Shown here: positions 47,233 through 54,809 of the stretch, in pieces
Layout of the letters: every line of letters begins with the position of its first letter
Numbering within the stretch: position 1 is the first letter of the stretch
DNA from: Aquificota bacterium
GTDB taxonomy: Bacteria > Aquificota > Aquificia > Aquificales > Aquificaceae
Assembly: GCA_018771605.1 (NCBI GenBank)
Contig: CP076324.1
Span: 744,001-808,000, forward strand
Direction of reading: 5' to 3'
DNA length: 64,000 nucleotides
Notes under the pieces: generated by a model
Database searches by the model: none
Seen by the model: only the letters and a program-made list of their open reading frames with translations
Told to the model about the DNA's origin: nothing
Program-made: the position numbers and the translations under genes

Positions 47233-47238
47233 ATTATA
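47233..47238 (-). promoter_or_regulatory. -10 box of tpiA (leaderless arrangement)
   Basis: TATAAT on the minus strand (47238-47233) ending 6 bases before the tpiA ATG and overlapping the end of the DUF2851 gene. Confidence 0.5.
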
Positions 47239-48004
47239 ACATATTTTCTTCTGAATTTTTAAGCTTGTGTAAAAGGTGTAAGCCAAAGTATGCCTTAACA
47301 GACCTTACAAGTTTATCGTATTTTTCTCCTATCTGAAGTCTAAAACTTTTTGTTATGGAGTTTTCGGATAGTGGTGGATGGAGCTGAAAAAGCCTTTCTA
47401 AAAAACTGGTATGTTCCTTTTTACCTTCAAGATAAGCCAAATAAAAGGGTAGAATAATATTAAAAAACATCTCTCTTTTTCTTAAAATGCCTATACCTTT
47501 AAAATCCATTATTCTATTTACGCATTGCCTTGCCTTTTCTGGAGTATCAACCAGCTCTTTTTCTTCTCTTGTTATCTTTGTCAAAAAATACTCAACCAAA
47601 CTGGGCAAACTTTCTGCCAACAACACAGAAATTCCTTTTATCCTTCTATCTGGGTAATTTGCCGGACGTATGTTCTTAAAATTCCATACACTTTTATCCA
47701 TCTTCAAGGAAAGGTCAAAGCCTTCCAAAGAACCTTCTCTTAGCTCTATAAAACCAGCACGGTGTAGCAAAGCCTTTTCTATCTTTTCCCTTTCTTTTAG
47801 CTTTTTTATCTCTTTAAAAGGTGTTATCAGCGCAAGCTCCAAAAATTGTGTTTTATTTTTTGGATAACCCAAAGAAAGCATTATTTCTCTATACAAGGCT
47901 TCATCTGCCTCTGCAATCCTAAGGAGATTTTTCATCCTTTGTATTTTCGTCTTAAGCCACCTTTCTCCAAGCTTTTCCAAAAGGCTTGCATCAATGTTTT
48001 TCAT
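47234..48004 (-). CDS. DUF2851-like protein, C-terminal part only
   Basis: 256 residues. The sequence begins (LLEKLGERWLKTKIQRMKNLL) where the middle of typical DUF2851 proteins (about 400-430 residues) would be, and carries YREIMLSLGYPKNKTQFLELALITP and NIRPANYPDRRIKGIS. The N-terminal 150-170 residues of the family are absent. The ATG overlaps the TGA of an 18-codon fragment of another gene, so a deletion junction is likely. Its function is unknown even in intact form. Confidence 0.6.
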   Translation of the reverse strand: MKNIDASLLEKLGERWLKTKIQRMKNLLRIAEADEALYREIMLSLGYPKNKTQFLELALITPFKEIKKLKEREKIEKALLHRAGFIELREGSLEGFDLSLKMDKSVWNFKNIRPANYPDRRIKGISVLLAESLPSLVEYFLTKITREEKELVDTPEKARQCVNRIMDFKGIGILRKREMFFNIILPFYLAYLEGKKEHTSFLERLFQLHPPLSENSITKSFRLQIGEKYDKLVRSVKAYFGLHLLHKLKNSEENML

Positions 48005-48057
48005 AAGTATTCATCACGCCATGATGTTTTAAATTCAATATTCTGAGATTCTTTCAT
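48001..48057 (-). pseudogene. N-terminal fossil of an AlbA_2-domain protein
   Basis: Directly after the methyltransferase gene (3-base gap), ATG at 48057 opens MKESQNIEFKTSWRDEYL and then TGA. This stretch is the characteristic start of AlbA_2 (Schlafen-like) DNA-binding proteins, often found in defence loci and helicase-like regulators. The rest of the gene is missing, and the DUF2851 remnant begins at the same point. Confidence 0.55.
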
Positions 48058-48060
48058 ATC

Positions 48061-51000
48061 TCACACACTCCTTGCCTTCTCCAATCTATTTTTGACCAAT
48101 TCCGCCACCGCCCAGTAAACCTCTTTTCTTTCTTCTTCTGTTAATCCTAAGGCATCAAAGACAATATCATCAAGGGCTTTTCTGTCTGGTAATGGATTTG
48201 GCTCTTGCTCACGGATGGGTTTATTCGGGTCAAAGCCAAGTTCTTTGAAGATGGAGTGGATTTCTCTACTTAAAATCTTTAAAATACTATCTTCTGGCGT
48301 TCTTATAAATAAAGGATTTAATAAAAATACTCTTTCTAGTTCCCTTTCATAAATATTTAAAGCTCCTAATCCTTCAATAATACCTTCTACCTCCCAAAAC
48401 ATTACTTGCAACGTGCTATTCATTACAAGTGCAGTTTGTAAGGATAAATCTTTATTTTTTAGAATTATTTTGTAAAATCTTTTAAATAACACTCTGGCCT
48501 TGTTATAATACACAATAAATCTACTATTAAACGTCCTACCTACAGCAAGATCGGGAACATGTCGCGAATTTCCTTTAGGATTCACACCATACTCAATAAT
48601 ATAAGGGTTGTCATTATCTATAAGAATTTTTGTAAGGTCTTGGGTTGAAAAGATTATCTTTGTTTTAGGAAAATTAGGCTTTACGTTATTATCATGAATA
48701 TATCCTTCAATTTTTGCAATATCCCCCAACCTCACCAATTTTCCTTTCCCTTTTTCCAAAATCTTAAAATAAATCTCTGGTGCCCTTAGGTATTTCCCGC
48801 CCCATTTATTGCCAACATAAACAAGCTCTTCTGGCTTACTATATCCTATCAAGCCCTCTTCTTCTGGAATTTCACTGCCTTCAAGCAAAAGCTCCCTTTT
48901 TGACTTTGGAAACACCCTAAAATCCTCATCATCAAAAACAGGCTCTTTTATGCTTTCAAGCCTCTTTATTACTTCTGCATTTACCACTTCCTCAAAGGGC
49001 TTTTTAAAGGCTACAAACTTAACCGTATAATCATCCAGCTCCTCTTTTGGTCTTTGAATCAAAACAATCACCGTATTTACATCTGCCTGCTTAAAGGAAC
49101 GCTTCCGCAGGTTATCAATGATATAAATTGGTCGCATTCTTTTGAGTAAAAACTCCTGAAGCCCCGCTCCATATCCCACATCAAGCCAAGAGTTGGAGTT
49201 TATAAAGCAAAATATTCCACCTTCTCTCAAGAGAGAAAGCCCATGATAGTAAAAATATACATAAAGGTCGCTCTTTTTGTCTATCTTAACATTCTTCCAA
49301 ATACTTTTTACAGAACTTTCCAACCTATCCTTATATTCCTTTTTCAGTTTTTTCCATTCTTCTTCTGTGTATCTACTCTTATCTTCCAAGGGTGGGGCTA
49401 TCAACTCCTGCCTTACGTAGGGCGGGTTTCCAATTACAATATCAAATCCACCTTTTGTGGCAAAAACTTCTGCAAAATCAATCTCCCAAAGGAAATAATC
49501 CTTCCGTGTTTTATTCTCAATGTTTCTTAAAGCCTCTTCAAGCCTTTCCTTTTCCCTTTTAAGACTTTTAATCTCCTCTTCCTTCCTTTTCCCTTCCTTC
49601 TTATTAACCTCACCAAATAAGCCTTTACCCTCTTCTAATTTTTTATAAAACTCAGCCTGTTTAATTTCCTTTTCAAGCATCTCTATTTTTGCCTCAAGAA
49701 TCTCCTTTAAAATATTCCGCTCAAGCTCTTCAATTTCTTTTATCTCCCTTAAATCTGCGCTCACTTGTCCGGAGAAAAAGGCGTTCTTTTTATCAATTAG
49801 CTCTCTTATTTTTGCTTCTATTTTTGGAGATATGTATTTTTTGGGATTTTCTCCCCTTAGGCTTATTAGAATACCACCTATTTCTTCCACAAGAGAATCA
49901 CCCTGACGGATTTTGAAAGATAAGTTTGGCAAAAGGGGTTTGGTGTATATGTCCATGTATTTTTCTTCCGTTTCTATAACCAAAGATAGCCAAAGTCTTA
50001 GCTCTCCCACCATTACGGCCCAATCCTTTACTTCCACACCATATAAATTCTCTTTAATGATCTTTTGCTTTAGTGCATAGATATTCTCCTCCCTTCCTTC
50101 AATTTTCCTTGTAAGCTCAGAATGAAGCTCCACAAGTATATTCATCATACCCACAAGGAAAGAAGCAGAACCTACTGCAGGGTCAACTATTTTTACATCT
50201 TCTAAACTTTCCTTTATTGCCTTTGCCTCTTTTTCTGTTAGCTTTTCAACTCCATTATGCGGGTCAAAAATAAAGTCTATAAGCTTTTCCTTTTCAATGT
50301 CCGTTTGACTGGCAAGATACTCCACTAAGGAAAGCCTACACATAAAATCAATTTCTACCCTTGGAGTATAGAAAATACCACTTTCTCCCCTCTCTTCCTC
50401 CGCTATTAGAGACTCGTAGACCCTGCCAAGCATCTCTGGGTCCACAGCCACTTCCACATCCAAGGGCAAAGCCTCGTCAATGGTAAAGTTGAATACCTCC
50501 AAAAAGCCTTTTTTCTTATCCCTTTCGCTCAAATCTGGTTCAAAAAGCCACTCAAAAACGCTGTCTGGCACATGTGTAAATTCTTCATCAAGGTCGTTTT
50601 TCAAAAATAGCCCACCGTTAAGGTATGGCATAAGCCTAAAGGACTCTTGAATTTCTTCAGGAAGTCTTTTGTCTATAAGGCTGGACCTTTTATTAAAAGC
50701 ACCAAAGAATAGGCTTGAAAGCCATACAGAGTAAAAAGTATCCTTTTGGTTTGGATCTCTTTTGACATACTCCTTGTATTTATTCCATAGATTTCTCATA
50801 TAATTAGGGTCTTGCTCATAATCTTTCCACTTTAACCACTTTTTCCTTTGCAAAAAGTATATAAAGAGTATTCTTGAAAGAAGCTGTTGGGCAAAAGCAT
50901 AACGCCTTTTGTAGTCGGAACCCTCACCTAAGGACCTTACAATAACCTCCTTTATGGCATATCTGTATGCCTCAAAGAACTCCTCCGTTATTGGTTCAAC

Positions 51001-51561
51001 GCTAAAGGCTTCTTCTAAATCTTTAAGGGTAGGCCTTTTTCTATCGTCCTCCAATAGGGGCAAAAACCTTGACTGAGCCGTATGGCTCTTTTCTCCTTCA
51101 CCCACCAAAAAGGACCATCTTTTAGCGGGTGTAAACTCTTCCCTTGCAACCAGCTTACCAGATGGCGTAATCTCTTGCCTATAATCAAGCTTTACAAGGG
51201 AAAATCTCCAGCTTTTACTACCCTCTGCCACAAAGGCCACCAAGCCAGCACGGAAATTACCCTCCTTCAAATACCAAGCTACCAAGTTTCTTTGTAGCGC
51301 ACGTGCCCTCTCAAGGGTATTTTCATCCTTTAAATGAACAACCAGCAGGACTATTTTTTTGTTATCATCTTCGTATTTACCTATATGCCTTAAAGAATCT
51401 ACATAATTTCTAAACCTCTCTGGAATTTGACCGCCCTTATATTCTATGTTCTCTTCCTCATAGTCTTTTAGAAGATGTTTAAGGAATAAGGTGAATTTTC
51501 TGTTGTCAAAGGGTGATTCAAAACAACTTCTTATTAACTCCTTCGCCTGACCCCTTTCCAT
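48061..51561 (-). CDS. Eco57I-like DNA adenine methyltransferase, large multidomain (restriction-modification type)
   Basis: 1166 residues. An N-terminal module (1-170: IEYKGGQIPERFRNYVDSL, VAFVAEGSKSWRFSLVKLDY) may be nuclease-like or regulatory, but no certain PD-(D/E)xK site was found. The central part (200-430) is helical. The gamma-type N6-adenine methylase core has motif I DPAVGSASFLVG (about 465) and motif IV IGNPPYVRQE (about 715). A long coiled coil (600-690) lies between motifs. The C-terminal target-recognition domain (930-1100) resembles type I S/IIG TRDs. It is in one operon with the PLD-helicase, upstream by 47 bases. Probably defence. Confidence 0.85.
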   Translation of the reverse strand: MERGQAKELIRSCFESPFDNRKFTLFLKHLLKDYEEENIEYKGGQIPERFRNYVDSLRHIGKYEDDNKKIVLLVVHLKDENTLERARALQRNLVAWYLKEGNFRAGLVAFVAEGSKSWRFSLVKLDYRQEITPSGKLVAREEFTPAKRWSFLVGEGEKSHTAQSRFLPLLEDDRKRPTLKDLEEAFSVEPITEEFFEAYRYAIKEVIVRSLGEGSDYKRRYAFAQQLLSRILFIYFLQRKKWLKWKDYEQDPNYMRNLWNKYKEYVKRDPNQKDTFYSVWLSSLFFGAFNKRSSLIDKRLPEEIQESFRLMPYLNGGLFLKNDLDEEFTHVPDSVFEWLFEPDLSERDKKKGFLEVFNFTIDEALPLDVEVAVDPEMLGRVYESLIAEEERGESGIFYTPRVEIDFMCRLSLVEYLASQTDIEKEKLIDFIFDPHNGVEKLTEKEAKAIKESLEDVKIVDPAVGSASFLVGMMNILVELHSELTRKIEGREENIYALKQKIIKENLYGVEVKDWAVMVGELRLWLSLVIETEEKYMDIYTKPLLPNLSFKIRQGDSLVEEIGGILISLRGENPKKYISPKIEAKIRELIDKKNAFFSGQVSADLREIKEIEELERNILKEILEAKIEMLEKEIKQAEFYKKLEEGKGLFGEVNKKEGKRKEEEIKSLKREKERLEEALRNIENKTRKDYFLWEIDFAEVFATKGGFDIVIGNPPYVRQELIAPPLEDKSRYTEEEWKKLKKEYKDRLESSVKSIWKNVKIDKKSDLYVYFYYHGLSLLREGGIFCFINSNSWLDVGYGAGLQEFLLKRMRPIYIIDNLRKRSFKQADVNTVIVLIQRPKEELDDYTVKFVAFKKPFEEVVNAEVIKRLESIKEPVFDDEDFRVFPKSKRELLLEGSEIPEEEGLIGYSKPEELVYVGNKWGGKYLRAPEIYFKILEKGKGKLVRLGDIAKIEGYIHDNNVKPNFPKTKIIFSTQDLTKILIDNDNPYIIEYGVNPKGNSRHVPDLAVGRTFNSRFIVYYNKARVLFKRFYKIILKNKDLSLQTALVMNSTLQVMFWEVEGIIEGLGALNIYERELERVFLLNPLFIRTPEDSILKILSREIHSIFKELGFDPNKPIREQEPNPLPDRKALDDIVFDALGLTEEERKEVYWAVAELVKNRLEKARSV

Positions 51562-51608
51562 CCCTCGTTATATTTTATTAAAGTTTTTTAAATGTAAAGA
51601 CATGGCAC

Positions 51609-54600
51609 TCAAAGTAAGTATAAAGAGAGTATTACTTCCCCCCTTTCCTTCTCCATACGTTCTGCCTCTATGTAATGGCCTTTCAAAAGCTCTTCTGGTA
51701 TTTGGCTTTTCAGTATTCCAATCAGTTTAATCGGGTCCTCCAATATATCTTCCTTGTTTTCATCAATAGACTTTAATACCCTTTGGATGGTTCTCTTTGG
51801 CAATAGTCCTTCTTCAAGCCTGTTTATGACCAAATTTATATACTCTCTGTGCAGACCATCTGTAATTTTATCTTGGTTTGCTTTAAGCAAGTTTAATAAC
51901 CTTCTATTAGACCCTGTTATTCCGCTTTTAACTTCTAAAGATTCTTCATTGATTGCATCCTCAAAGGCTTTTATGTTCCTTTCAAGAAGTTCGTAATATT
52001 TTTGTAATGGTATTTCCTCACTCTTTTCGTTCTGTTGGCTTTCAAATATTTTTGCCGCAGTTAGAAAATCTACCTCTTTTACCTCTTTTCCGTCTGCTAA
52101 GAAAAACTTCATCAACTTACCTCTTCTAAAGAAGGTCAAAAGAGAACTGTGAGATGCTAAAGCCTCTATTGATGGAGAAAGAGCCTTTGCAGAACGGGCT
52201 TTTTTAGGTAAATTTTTTATCTTTTGGAATAGTGCTTCGTTGTTATTCTTTATATCTTCAATAATTCTCAAGTATTTTAGCTCACTTTCCTCCTCCTCTT
52301 CCTCTTCAGTTATGGTCTTTTTGGATAGAAGCTTATCAAACAGCTCGTGAGAAGATACGGGTTCACCCTCTGTTAGTATGGCAGAATCTCCACCAAGCAA
52401 AGTTAAAAAGGTTTCTACCTTGGACCGTGCTATGTTTGTAAGTTCAATTTCTGTGTCCGCTTGCTTGGTAGGGAAAAAGTTAAAGGTGTAGATTTTGTCA
52501 TGGGGTGTGTCTATGCGGTTTACCCTTCCTACCCTTTGCATAAGCCTTGTTGGGTTCCAAGGTATGTCGTAGTTTATAACTATGTTTGACCTGTGAAGGC
52601 TAACACCTTCAGAAAGCACATCTGTTGATATAAGTATTCTGTATTCATCCCTCTTTTCTCTTGCTTTTGCAGAAAAATTGTTTATAACATCCTCCATAAC
52701 TGAAGGAGAAGATTGGCCAGTGAACAAAAGAACCTTTCCTTCAATATGTTTGTCTTCTTCTATTTTTTCTGCCAGGTATTCTGCCGTTTCCTTTGATTCG
52801 GTAAATATGATTATTTTCCCCTTTTTCAAAAGCTGGTTTTCTTTTAGGTTTTTTAAAAGCTCCTCAAGCTTTGGGTCTCTTTTTAAAGAATCCCACATGG
52901 ATTTTATTCTTTTAAGTATATTAAGGTCCCACTCTAAATCCTTTCTAAATTCTGGAATGAAGTCTTCGCTGTTGTATCTTTCCGCTTTTCCTTCATCAAT
53001 CAACCTGTGGATTGCTTCATCATCTCCACTTTCCAAAAGCTCAAATATCTTGTTTATATACTTTTTACTGACATAGACCACACCATTATCATAGTGTTTT
53101 ATAAACTTCTCATAAGAATTGATAAACCTTTCAATGCTTTTTTTAAAAGCGTAAAAACTGCTCTCAAGCCTCTTTACAAGCAAAACTTTCATAAAGGATC
53201 CCATATTCCTCTGGGATTGAGCCTCCTGTTGTGATATATCACGCTTTAGGTAAAGCATGGGTGTATAACGTGCATACTTTAACTTTTTAGTTATAAGCTC
53301 TACAGTTTCCATAAAAACTTTATCCTCTTCGTCGTTTAACTTATAAAAGATCGGCTTTGGGTCTTCCACTTCTGGAAATTTTATGTTATTCCTTTTTAAA
53401 TCTTCTGCAAAATACTTTTCTATTTCGCTTCTTGTCCTTCTTACCATTATGTATTTCAAAACCTTGTCCCTAATTTCCTTAGCTACCTCCTTAGCTACCC
53501 TAAGATATTCATCATAATTTTCCTGACGGTCTACTTCATCAAGCCTCTTTTGTAGTCTTTTGAAAAATCTTTCAAGGTCTTTAATTCCCGGAATTGTGCT
53601 GTTTTTAGGGTTCTGGAACAGCTTTATCTGATTGAGAATGTCCAAAGGAGTGTTGTTATAAGGCGTAGCTGATACCAAAATTACCCTTTTGCCTCTACAT
53701 ATCTGCATAAGCTTTTCATAGCTTATGGTGCTTTCATTTCTAAACCTGTGCGATTCATCTATAACCACATTTTTATACTCTCTTCTTTTTATCTCTTCCA
53801 AGGCTTCGTCAAGCTTACCAGTAGATTCATAATATGCGGGTATGCCAAAGTCGCTAAAAACGTTGTACCAAGACCCGGGATTGTTCTTGTCAATAAGATT
53901 GGGCGGTGCTATAACAATAGTTCTTCCACCAAGCTGTTTTACAAGCATTGCTGTAATATAGGTTTTACCAAGTCCAACCACATCGGATATGAAGACTCCA
54001 CCATGCTCTTCTATTATCTTCTTTGCGTTTAAAACCGCCTGTTCTTGGTACTCAAGCCTTTTAAAATTGGTTGGTTCATACTCCTGGTAAATTCTTTCTA
54101 AGCCTTCCAGGTCCTCTTTAAAATATTCATAAAGGAATTTAAGATATAGCTCGTAGGGCGTGATATCTTCTTTTAACCATGTCCTTTCTTTTAAGGTTTG
54201 CACAAAGTCCTCCGTTACATCAACAGATTCTTTCCACAGCTCTTCAAACCTACTTTTTGCATATTCGTAGTCCGCACGGTCTTTTAACTCTACGTTGAAC
54301 TCAAGGTTATCTTCCAACCCAGACTCTGTAAAGTTGCTAGAACCAGTAATTACCCTTCCCACGTCCCTGTCCCCTTCCTTAAAGGTCATAATATAAACCT
54401 TTGCATGAAGCCTTCTGGAAGGGTGGGCTCTTATCTCCAGTTTTCCTTCCCTTATCCACTCAATAAACTTACGAACCCCCTCTTCCACTCTGAGATGGTC
54501 CTCCGACTGGCTCATATCCTCCTCTATGAACCTTTGAACCTCTTGCTTTACTTCCTTAACAGAAAGCAGGTCATAGGTCTTTTTGTCCACTCCCATGCCT

Positions 54601-54809
54601 ACAAGTATTCTTATCTTTTCCGTTTTCTCTAAGGCTTCCCAGAGGGCATAAAAACCGCTTATTCTAAAGTAAGCCACGATACAATCAAAGTATTTACAAT
54701 CCTTTATAAGCTGTTTAAATCTATCTTTTAAAGTTTTTCCTGGTTCATTAACTATAAAGGTTAAGTCCAGGACGCTCCCCACCATGGATAATATTGTATG
54801 ATAAACCAA
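51609..54809 (-). CDS. PLD-nuclease/SNF2-type helicase fusion
   Basis: 1066 residues. An N-terminal phospholipase-D-like nuclease domain (about 20-200) has one HKD-type motif (HAKVYIM followed by GSSNFTESGL). A SNF2 ATPase follows with Walker A DVVGLGKTYIT (near 285), DESHRFRN and VSATPYNN. The helicase C domain has STDVLSEGVSLHRSN and NPTRLMQRVGRVNRID. The C-terminal 250 residues are helical, with an acidic EEEEEESELK. The domains occur in DISARM-like and other defence helicases, but here with only a methyltransferase. The start shown, 'MVYHTILSMVG', may be too early; the second ATG (MVGSVLDLTFIVNEPG) is equally good. Confidence 0.85.
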   Translation of the reverse strand: MVYHTILSMVGSVLDLTFIVNEPGKTLKDRFKQLIKDCKYFDCIVAYFRISGFYALWEALEKTEKIRILVGMGVDKKTYDLLSVKEVKQEVQRFIEEDMSQSEDHLRVEEGVRKFIEWIREGKLEIRAHPSRRLHAKVYIMTFKEGDRDVGRVITGSSNFTESGLEDNLEFNVELKDRADYEYAKSRFEELWKESVDVTEDFVQTLKERTWLKEDITPYELYLKFLYEYFKEDLEGLERIYQEYEPTNFKRLEYQEQAVLNAKKIIEEHGGVFISDVVGLGKTYITAMLVKQLGGRTIVIAPPNLIDKNNPGSWYNVFSDFGIPAYYESTGKLDEALEEIKRREYKNVVIDESHRFRNESTISYEKLMQICRGKRVILVSATPYNNTPLDILNQIKLFQNPKNSTIPGIKDLERFFKRLQKRLDEVDRQENYDEYLRVAKEVAKEIRDKVLKYIMVRRTRSEIEKYFAEDLKRNNIKFPEVEDPKPIFYKLNDEEDKVFMETVELITKKLKYARYTPMLYLKRDISQQEAQSQRNMGSFMKVLLVKRLESSFYAFKKSIERFINSYEKFIKHYDNGVVYVSKKYINKIFELLESGDDEAIHRLIDEGKAERYNSEDFIPEFRKDLEWDLNILKRIKSMWDSLKRDPKLEELLKNLKENQLLKKGKIIIFTESKETAEYLAEKIEEDKHIEGKVLLFTGQSSPSVMEDVINNFSAKAREKRDEYRILISTDVLSEGVSLHRSNIVINYDIPWNPTRLMQRVGRVNRIDTPHDKIYTFNFFPTKQADTEIELTNIARSKVETFLTLLGGDSAILTEGEPVSSHELFDKLLSKKTITEEEEEEESELKYLRIIEDIKNNNEALFQKIKNLPKKARSAKALSPSIEALASHSSLLTFFRRGKLMKFFLADGKEVKEVDFLTAAKIFESQQNEKSEEIPLQKYYELLERNIKAFEDAINEESLEVKSGITGSNRRLLNLLKANQDKITDGLHREYINLVINRLEEGLLPKRTIQRVLKSIDENKEDILEDPIKLIGILKSQIPEELLKGHYIEAERMEKERGEVILSLYLL

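Follow-up and report, generated by a model that had tools for sequence, protein, structure and literature searches.

The window analysed here comprises 64,000 nucleotides (G000:C1:744001-808000) of the 1.72 Mb genome of a thermophilic Aquificota bacterium, and its subject is a candidate defence cassette of three co-directional genes that lies between uppP and tpiA. The cassette encodes a phospholipase D (PLD)-like nuclease fused to an SNF2 helicase, an adenine methyltransferase and a DUF2851 protein:

47234..54809 (-): insertion of three genes that separates uppP from tpiA
51609..54809 (-): PLD (HKD) nuclease plus SNF2 helicase, 1066 amino acids (aa), putative restriction/translocation subunit
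48061..51561 (-): predicted Eco57I-class N6-adenine methyltransferase/specificity subunit, 1166 aa, ATG start (PF07669, 5.4e-29)
47234..48004 (-): DUF2851 protein (C-terminal half), 256 aa (PF11013, 2.9e-12)

The empty site is preserved in eight congeners (G003, G004, G006, G008, G009, G010, G012, G013), in which uppP and tpiA are separated by 6-60 bp. Alignment of the window to these sites picks up again on both flanks of the block, and the inserted content is exactly the helicase, methyltransferase and DUF2851 genes. The 7.6-kb block has a GC content of 37.0%, compared to 44.0% for the window and at least 40.6% for every other 7.6-kb stretch of it. The AT-rich patch and the two large minus-strand open reading frames (ORFs; 48061-51561 and 51609-54809) described in the original prediction were thus recovered, whereas its outline of the locus needs correction. 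Its start at 48001 falls within the third same-strand gene, that for DUF2851, and therefore the pair sits between uppP and DUF2851-tpiA. Likewise, the proposed two-gene system stands as a conserved unit but not as the content of the insertion, which holds three genes. Intergenic gaps are short (47 bp between helicase and methyltransferase, 56 bp between methyltransferase and DUF2851 gene). Promoter and terminator scans gave signal at the level of shuffled sequence. Neither a target-site duplication nor a mobility gene was found at the insertion, the direct repeats there being imperfect and chance-like.

The helicase ORF begins with TTG, with an alternative ATG at codon 9, and is organised as follows:

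54234..54710 (-): PLD-like nuclease domain, aa 34-192 (PF13091, PLDc_2, 2.5e-12, Pfam)
54333-54407 (-): HxK...GSSN of the PLD domain, aa 135-159; H135, K137, N159 and E170 invariant
52500..54062 (-): SNF2-type motor, about aa 250-770 (PF04851, ResIII; PF00176, SNF2; PF00271, Helicase_C)
51612..52202 (-): variable C-terminal region, aa 870-1066, no family assigned

The motor carries a Walker A lysine (K282), D351-E352-S-H354, an S-A-T-P motif and Q758-R-x-G-R. K282, D351-E352 and Q758/R762 are, together with the four PLD residues, invariant or nearly so even in distant relatives. A PLD-like nuclease fused to a complete SNF2 helicase, as originally proposed, is therefore what the Pfam domains and intact motifs describe, and the PADLOC profile C3a139 ('HKD+Snf2') matches residues 19-869, i.e. 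the PLD and SNF2 domains, at 3.4e-54. Profile searches of both ends of the protein had been suggested; the N-terminal one yielded the PLDc_2 domain, while a Pfam scan of aa 870-1066 yielded no family and identified no recognition domain. Within this C-terminal region, aa 901-1000 share 9-21% identity with distant members.

The methyltransferase can be divided into three parts:

50962..51561 (-): N-terminal domain (N-domain), about aa 1-200, putative helicase-docking module, breakpoint near aa 190-210
49012..50931 (-): methyltransferase core, about aa 211-850, with D460-P-A-x-G-S and N712-P-P-Y (49417-49428)
48232..48639 (-): putative target-recognition region, about aa 975-1110, hypervariable

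Pfam assigns both Eco57I and N6_Mtase to this chain, and the S-adenosylmethionine site D460-P-A-x-G-S and N712-P-P-Y show little or no variation among family members, in agreement with the 1166-residue N6-adenine methylase of the original prediction. Its AlphaFold model is weak (mean predicted local distance difference test score (pLDDT) 54.8, predicted template modelling score 0.34), and a structure search with it returned only the known N6-methyltransferase class. The same prediction had seen no certain nuclease site in the methylase; across the family, the N-domain has no conserved acidic triad of the nuclease type, and Pfam reports no nuclease family. Because this triad is lacking, the PLD domain is likely the only nuclease of the pair, and the earlier assumption that the helicase supplies the nuclease fits the PLD-SNF2 protein as the sole recognisable one.

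How often the two genes occur together was surveyed in two sets of loci. The first comprises 43 helicase loci (Aquificota, other phyla, plasmids), some of them chosen through the methyltransferase; 39 encode the methyltransferase on the same strand, in 38 cases within 1.1 kb. A scan of viral contigs provides a less biased sample, since its loci were selected by the helicase alone: a family methyltransferase is present, on the same strand as the helicase, in 19 of the 24 strong helicase matches (L108-L131), and a fragment in two more. Rare adjacency in other genomes, the outcome that would have spoken against the original prediction, did not occur. Of the four exceptions among the 43 loci, three lie at contig ends; the fourth (L067 of G013, a genome in one contig) has a shortened helicase of 1005 aa, compared to 1077 aa in G006. 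Relatives were found in Aquificota, Omnitrophota, Thermotogota, Deinococcota, Cyanobacteriota, Bacteroidota and Euryarchaeota. The pair appears mobile, as several viral-contig loci adjoin phage-type genes, e.g. for a lysozyme and a scaffold-like protein.

A second, diverged PLD-SNF2 and methyltransferase pair is present in the same genome as the window (L064 6042-12705; G000:C1:1160541-1167204). Two congeneric genomes (G023 and G030) carry pairs of different lineages (L052 and L058) at one chromosomal site, with flanking genes that are mostly 95-98% identical. Small toxin-antitoxin-like genes stand between helicase and methyltransferase in L078, L080, L081, L084, L091 and L073, and at other loci SIR2-like, Fic, DUF3644 or AAA/OLD-like ATPase genes lie beside the pair.

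The N-terminal part and the core of the methyltransferase have different histories. The window helicase clusters with those of L049, L050, L051, L052, L085 and L086 (100% support in the Shimodaira-Hasegawa-like approximate likelihood ratio test, SH-aLRT), and the N-domain of about 200 aa clusters with the same six loci (99% SH-aLRT). The core groups with L041, L042, L043 and L065 (100% SH-aLRT), whose helicases, where present, are just 27-33% identical to the window helicase. A breakpoint scan places the change of lineage near aa 190-210, and trees with the groupings exchanged fail approximately unbiased tests (1e-52, 4e-5 and 7e-8). Across 37 loci, helicase identity correlates with that of the N-domain at a Mantel r of 0.92 and with that of the core at 0.70, the partial correlations being 0.83 and 0.12. 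When repeated with 19 independent viral-contig loci, the analysis gave r values of 0.95 for the N-domain (partial 0.78), 0.86 for the core (partial 0.10) and 0.28 for the C-terminus. Similar cores were found with three types of helicase and N-domain, namely those of the window, of L041/L042 and of L043. As judged from these phylogenies, the methyltransferase is a mosaic in which the N-domain tracks the helicase and the core stems from a different lineage. The simplest explanation would be that the N-domain binds the helicase, i.e. acts as its dock. It is this co-inheritance, along with the conserved adjacency, that is left unexplained if the methyltransferase acts alone as a complete Type IIG enzyme, with the helicase a mere neighbour or helper. 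That the PADLOC 'Type IIG' model PDLC03596 covers the full length of a family member (967.7 bits) and matches the window protein with 352 bits (1.4e-105) favours such an enzyme; the missing acidic triad of the N-domain does not, and we regard it as very unlikely.

Variation of a different kind affects the C-terminal part of the methyltransferase. While most of the window core is 50-90% identical to L041/L042/L065, identity falls to 19-22% at aa 981-1050 and reaches 83-96% in the last 46 residues (aa 1121-1166). The sister loci L061/L063 share 92% identity in the helicase and 85-98% over most of the methyltransferase and then drop to 16-20%; the same drop is seen for L091/L062, L064/L053 and L049/L052. 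Conversely, C-termini can be alike across helicase lineages, e.g. 80% between L052 and L058. Three viral-contig loci carry additional copies of the region behind the methyltransferase:

L112 11651-14121: inverted spare recognition-domain cassette
L116 11714-14282: inverted spare recognition-domain cassette
L121 11652-14078: inverted spare recognition-domain cassette

Each module is joined by long inverted repeats, with lengths and identities of 291 nt and 98% in L112, 304 nt and 88% in L121, and roughly 100-110 nt and 95-100% in L116. The cassettes of L112 and L121 were confirmed to encode a TaqI_C domain, and next to all three lies a serine (resolvase-type) recombinase, recognised by Pfam for L112 and by sequence for L116 and L121. 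Inversions that exchange the recognition region occur in phase-variable Type I systems, and these three cassettes likely provide phase-variable specificity in the same way. The window locus itself has no inverted recognition cassette; in its relatives the recognition regions are exchanged, or apparently invertible.

Isolated C-terminal methyltransferase fragments were also observed (L071 3615-3974, L090 2048-2494 and L070 3-563, the last beginning at a contig edge). In L071 and L090 the last ~60 residues are about 88% identical, in L070 the identity is 51% over 155 residues, and all three are apparently remnants or spare modules. In two Thermales plasmids (L072 4380-7995 and L075 3837-7167) the methyltransferase is divided between two genes, one for the core and one for the recognition domain, an arrangement that resembles the HsdM/HsdS split.

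Where the recognition regions reside also bears on the relation to SauUSI, which likewise combines a PLD nuclease and an SF2 motor in one chain (PMC7913695, PDB 7clg). Unlike the cassette, SauUSI is a single-gene Type IV enzyme with its own domain for methylated sites and no partner methyltransferase. Its architecture would allow for a modification-dependent mode in which the helicase, like SauUSI, targets phage DNA that carries modifications, with a modulating or protective part for the methyltransferase. Here, however, Pfam identifies no recognition domain in the helicase, and the diversifying recognition regions sit in the methyltransferase; this mode of action thus seems highly improbable.

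Among multi-gene systems, DISARM class 1 (defence island system associated with restriction-modification; DrmD/DrmMI) and ARMADA (PMC12458937) similarly have an SNF2/RapA-like helicase next to an adenine methyltransferase of the PglX kind, and the cassette proteins match the DrmD and DrmMI profiles. They differ in that the cassette locus has no YprA-like helicase/DUF1998 gene and encodes the PLD domain in one chain with the helicase. DISARM class 1 was rejected, as neither a DrmA helicase nor DrmB (DUF1998) occurs among the cassette proteins and the neighbouring window ORFs scanned. For bacteriophage exclusion (BREX), likewise rejected, the whole genome contains no match to PF08665 (PglZ), and the PglX profile scores 63.5 bits on the methyltransferase, with a cut-off of 500. 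The original prediction had noted that the extra genes of DISARM and BREX are missing, and indeed the locus includes no gene for PglZ, DrmA/B or DUF499. An exclusion of the BREX/Pgl type, in which methyltransferase and motor stop the replication of unmodified DNA and PLD cleavage is minor or conditional, is suggested by the matches to the PglX and DrmMI profiles and of the methyltransferase model to BrxX structures. Besides the lack of PglZ, the invariance of the PLD catalytic residues in distant members speaks against it and argues that cleavage is under selection; we consider such an exclusion unlikely.

In the literature, the nearest architecture is that of the Type-2 BREX-Related system (DUF499-centred, Hma-like), for which a DUF499 ATPase and DUF3780 are the defining components and a restriction-modification-like mode was proposed (PMC12839542). 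It also has an HKD endonuclease at the N-terminus of a Swi2/Snf2 helicase and an N6-methyltransferase. The methyltransferase of the cassette, by contrast, matches Eco57I, and DUF499 and DUF3780 were not found in the cassette, the latter being absent from the Pfam matches of its proteins, with no whole-genome search made. A BREX-related/Hma assignment was discarded, since no DUF499 ATPase is encoded among the 738 ORFs of the pair loci and the copy in the genome lies 52 kb off. That copy stands with two co-directional ORFs of 905 and 1108 aa (L107 4472-13045; G000:C1:850471-859044), which looks like a complete Hma/BREX-related locus. Its existence leaves the idea that the cassette is only one piece of a DISARM or Hma/BREX-related system of larger size and draws on such distant parts; given that this locus has its own partner ORFs and that DUF499 relatives are absent from all pair-locus ORFs, we assign the idea only the slightest chance.

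Type ISP enzymes are one polypeptide with an N-terminal nuclease, and Type I systems have a separate HsdS. As in Type I and Type ISP restriction (LlaBIII, 4xqk), motor and nuclease would be coupled in the cassette to an N6-adenine methyltransferase and a recognition domain. CglI and NgoAVII (PMC4267653, PMC5737866) likewise encode an ATP-dependent endonuclease and a helicase-like ATPase with a methyltransferase; in these, nuclease and ATPase are separate proteins of an R2H2 complex instead of one chain. Type IIG proper was dismissed because the methyltransferase chain shows no conserved acidic triad in its N-domain and no Pfam nuclease family. PADLOC captures both proteins of the family, by C3a139 and by the 'Type IIG' models PDLC03596/PDLC03628 (the pSYSX and viral-contig methyltransferases match the IIG models over their whole length), yet files the pair as two unrelated single-gene entries. 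No published name for the pair was found in the open-licence literature.

The DUF2851 protein of the window spans positions 144-353 of the Pfam family. Three of 136 Aquificota genomes encode such a protein, each time about 2.1 kb or less downstream of a family methyltransferase; in G010 this methyltransferase is at the contig start and the helicase is out of view. The Omnitrophota locus L041 has helicase, methyltransferase and DUF2851 in the same order, with one small gene between and 57% identity in DUF2851. On account of this co-occurrence, DUF2851 is best read as an associated component of the cassette. Its model is poor (pLDDT 45) and therefore no function is claimed.

Taken together, we consider it probable that the cassette is a mobile, ATP-dependent defence system of the restriction-modification type. 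Since the pair is conserved, the catalytic sites are intact, N-domain and helicase are co-inherited and recognition regions are exchanged, we assume the following mechanism. The methyltransferase would bind a specific sequence via its C-terminal region and mark an adenine of self DNA, which would give protection. At an unmodified site its N-domain would hold or position the PLD-SNF2 protein, the SNF2 motor would translocate at the expense of ATP, and the PLD domains, as a dimer, would cut the DNA, with DUF2851 as an accessory. SauUSI is a precedent for this chemistry, as it translocates driven by ATP and cuts through a dimer of nuclease domains (PMC7913695). Both self-marking and the sequence specificity of cutting are most likely provided by the methyltransferase.

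Several points weigh against this model. A search of open-licence papers found no biochemistry, methylome or phage data on any family member, and because accessory genes differ between loci the two genes alone may not suffice. The docking role rests on co-evolution rather than on the structure of a complex. The N-domain has no database match (the best hit of a profile search against the PDB, a bromodomain at E 0.2, is due to chance, and Pfam gives no consistent family). It might conceivably keep a residual nuclease role in some members, since its predicted order of elements, alpha-beta-beta-beta-alpha-beta (low confidence), resembles the PD-(D/E)XK fold of restriction endonucleases.

Compared to the original prediction, the DUF2851 gene in the insertion, the cutting specificity that is most likely borne by the methyltransferase and an N-domain that looks like a docking module are additional. 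We see an even chance that the family represents a widespread, unnamed class of ATP-dependent restriction-modification systems, in which one adenine methyltransferase replaces HsdS and HsdM, the N-domain is dedicated to docking a PLD-SNF2 translocase-nuclease, and replacement or inversion of a C-terminal recognition module alters specificity, a class that catalogues split into 'Type IIG' enzymes and orphan helicases. If so, many of these single-protein enzymes and orphan helicases would be halves of one system, which would alter how defence genes are catalogued and how methylomes are read. The mosaic would then map the domain that couples marking to cutting, and a swap of the N-domain should re-pair a methyltransferase with a different helicase. 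Versions from thermophiles may suit structural work.

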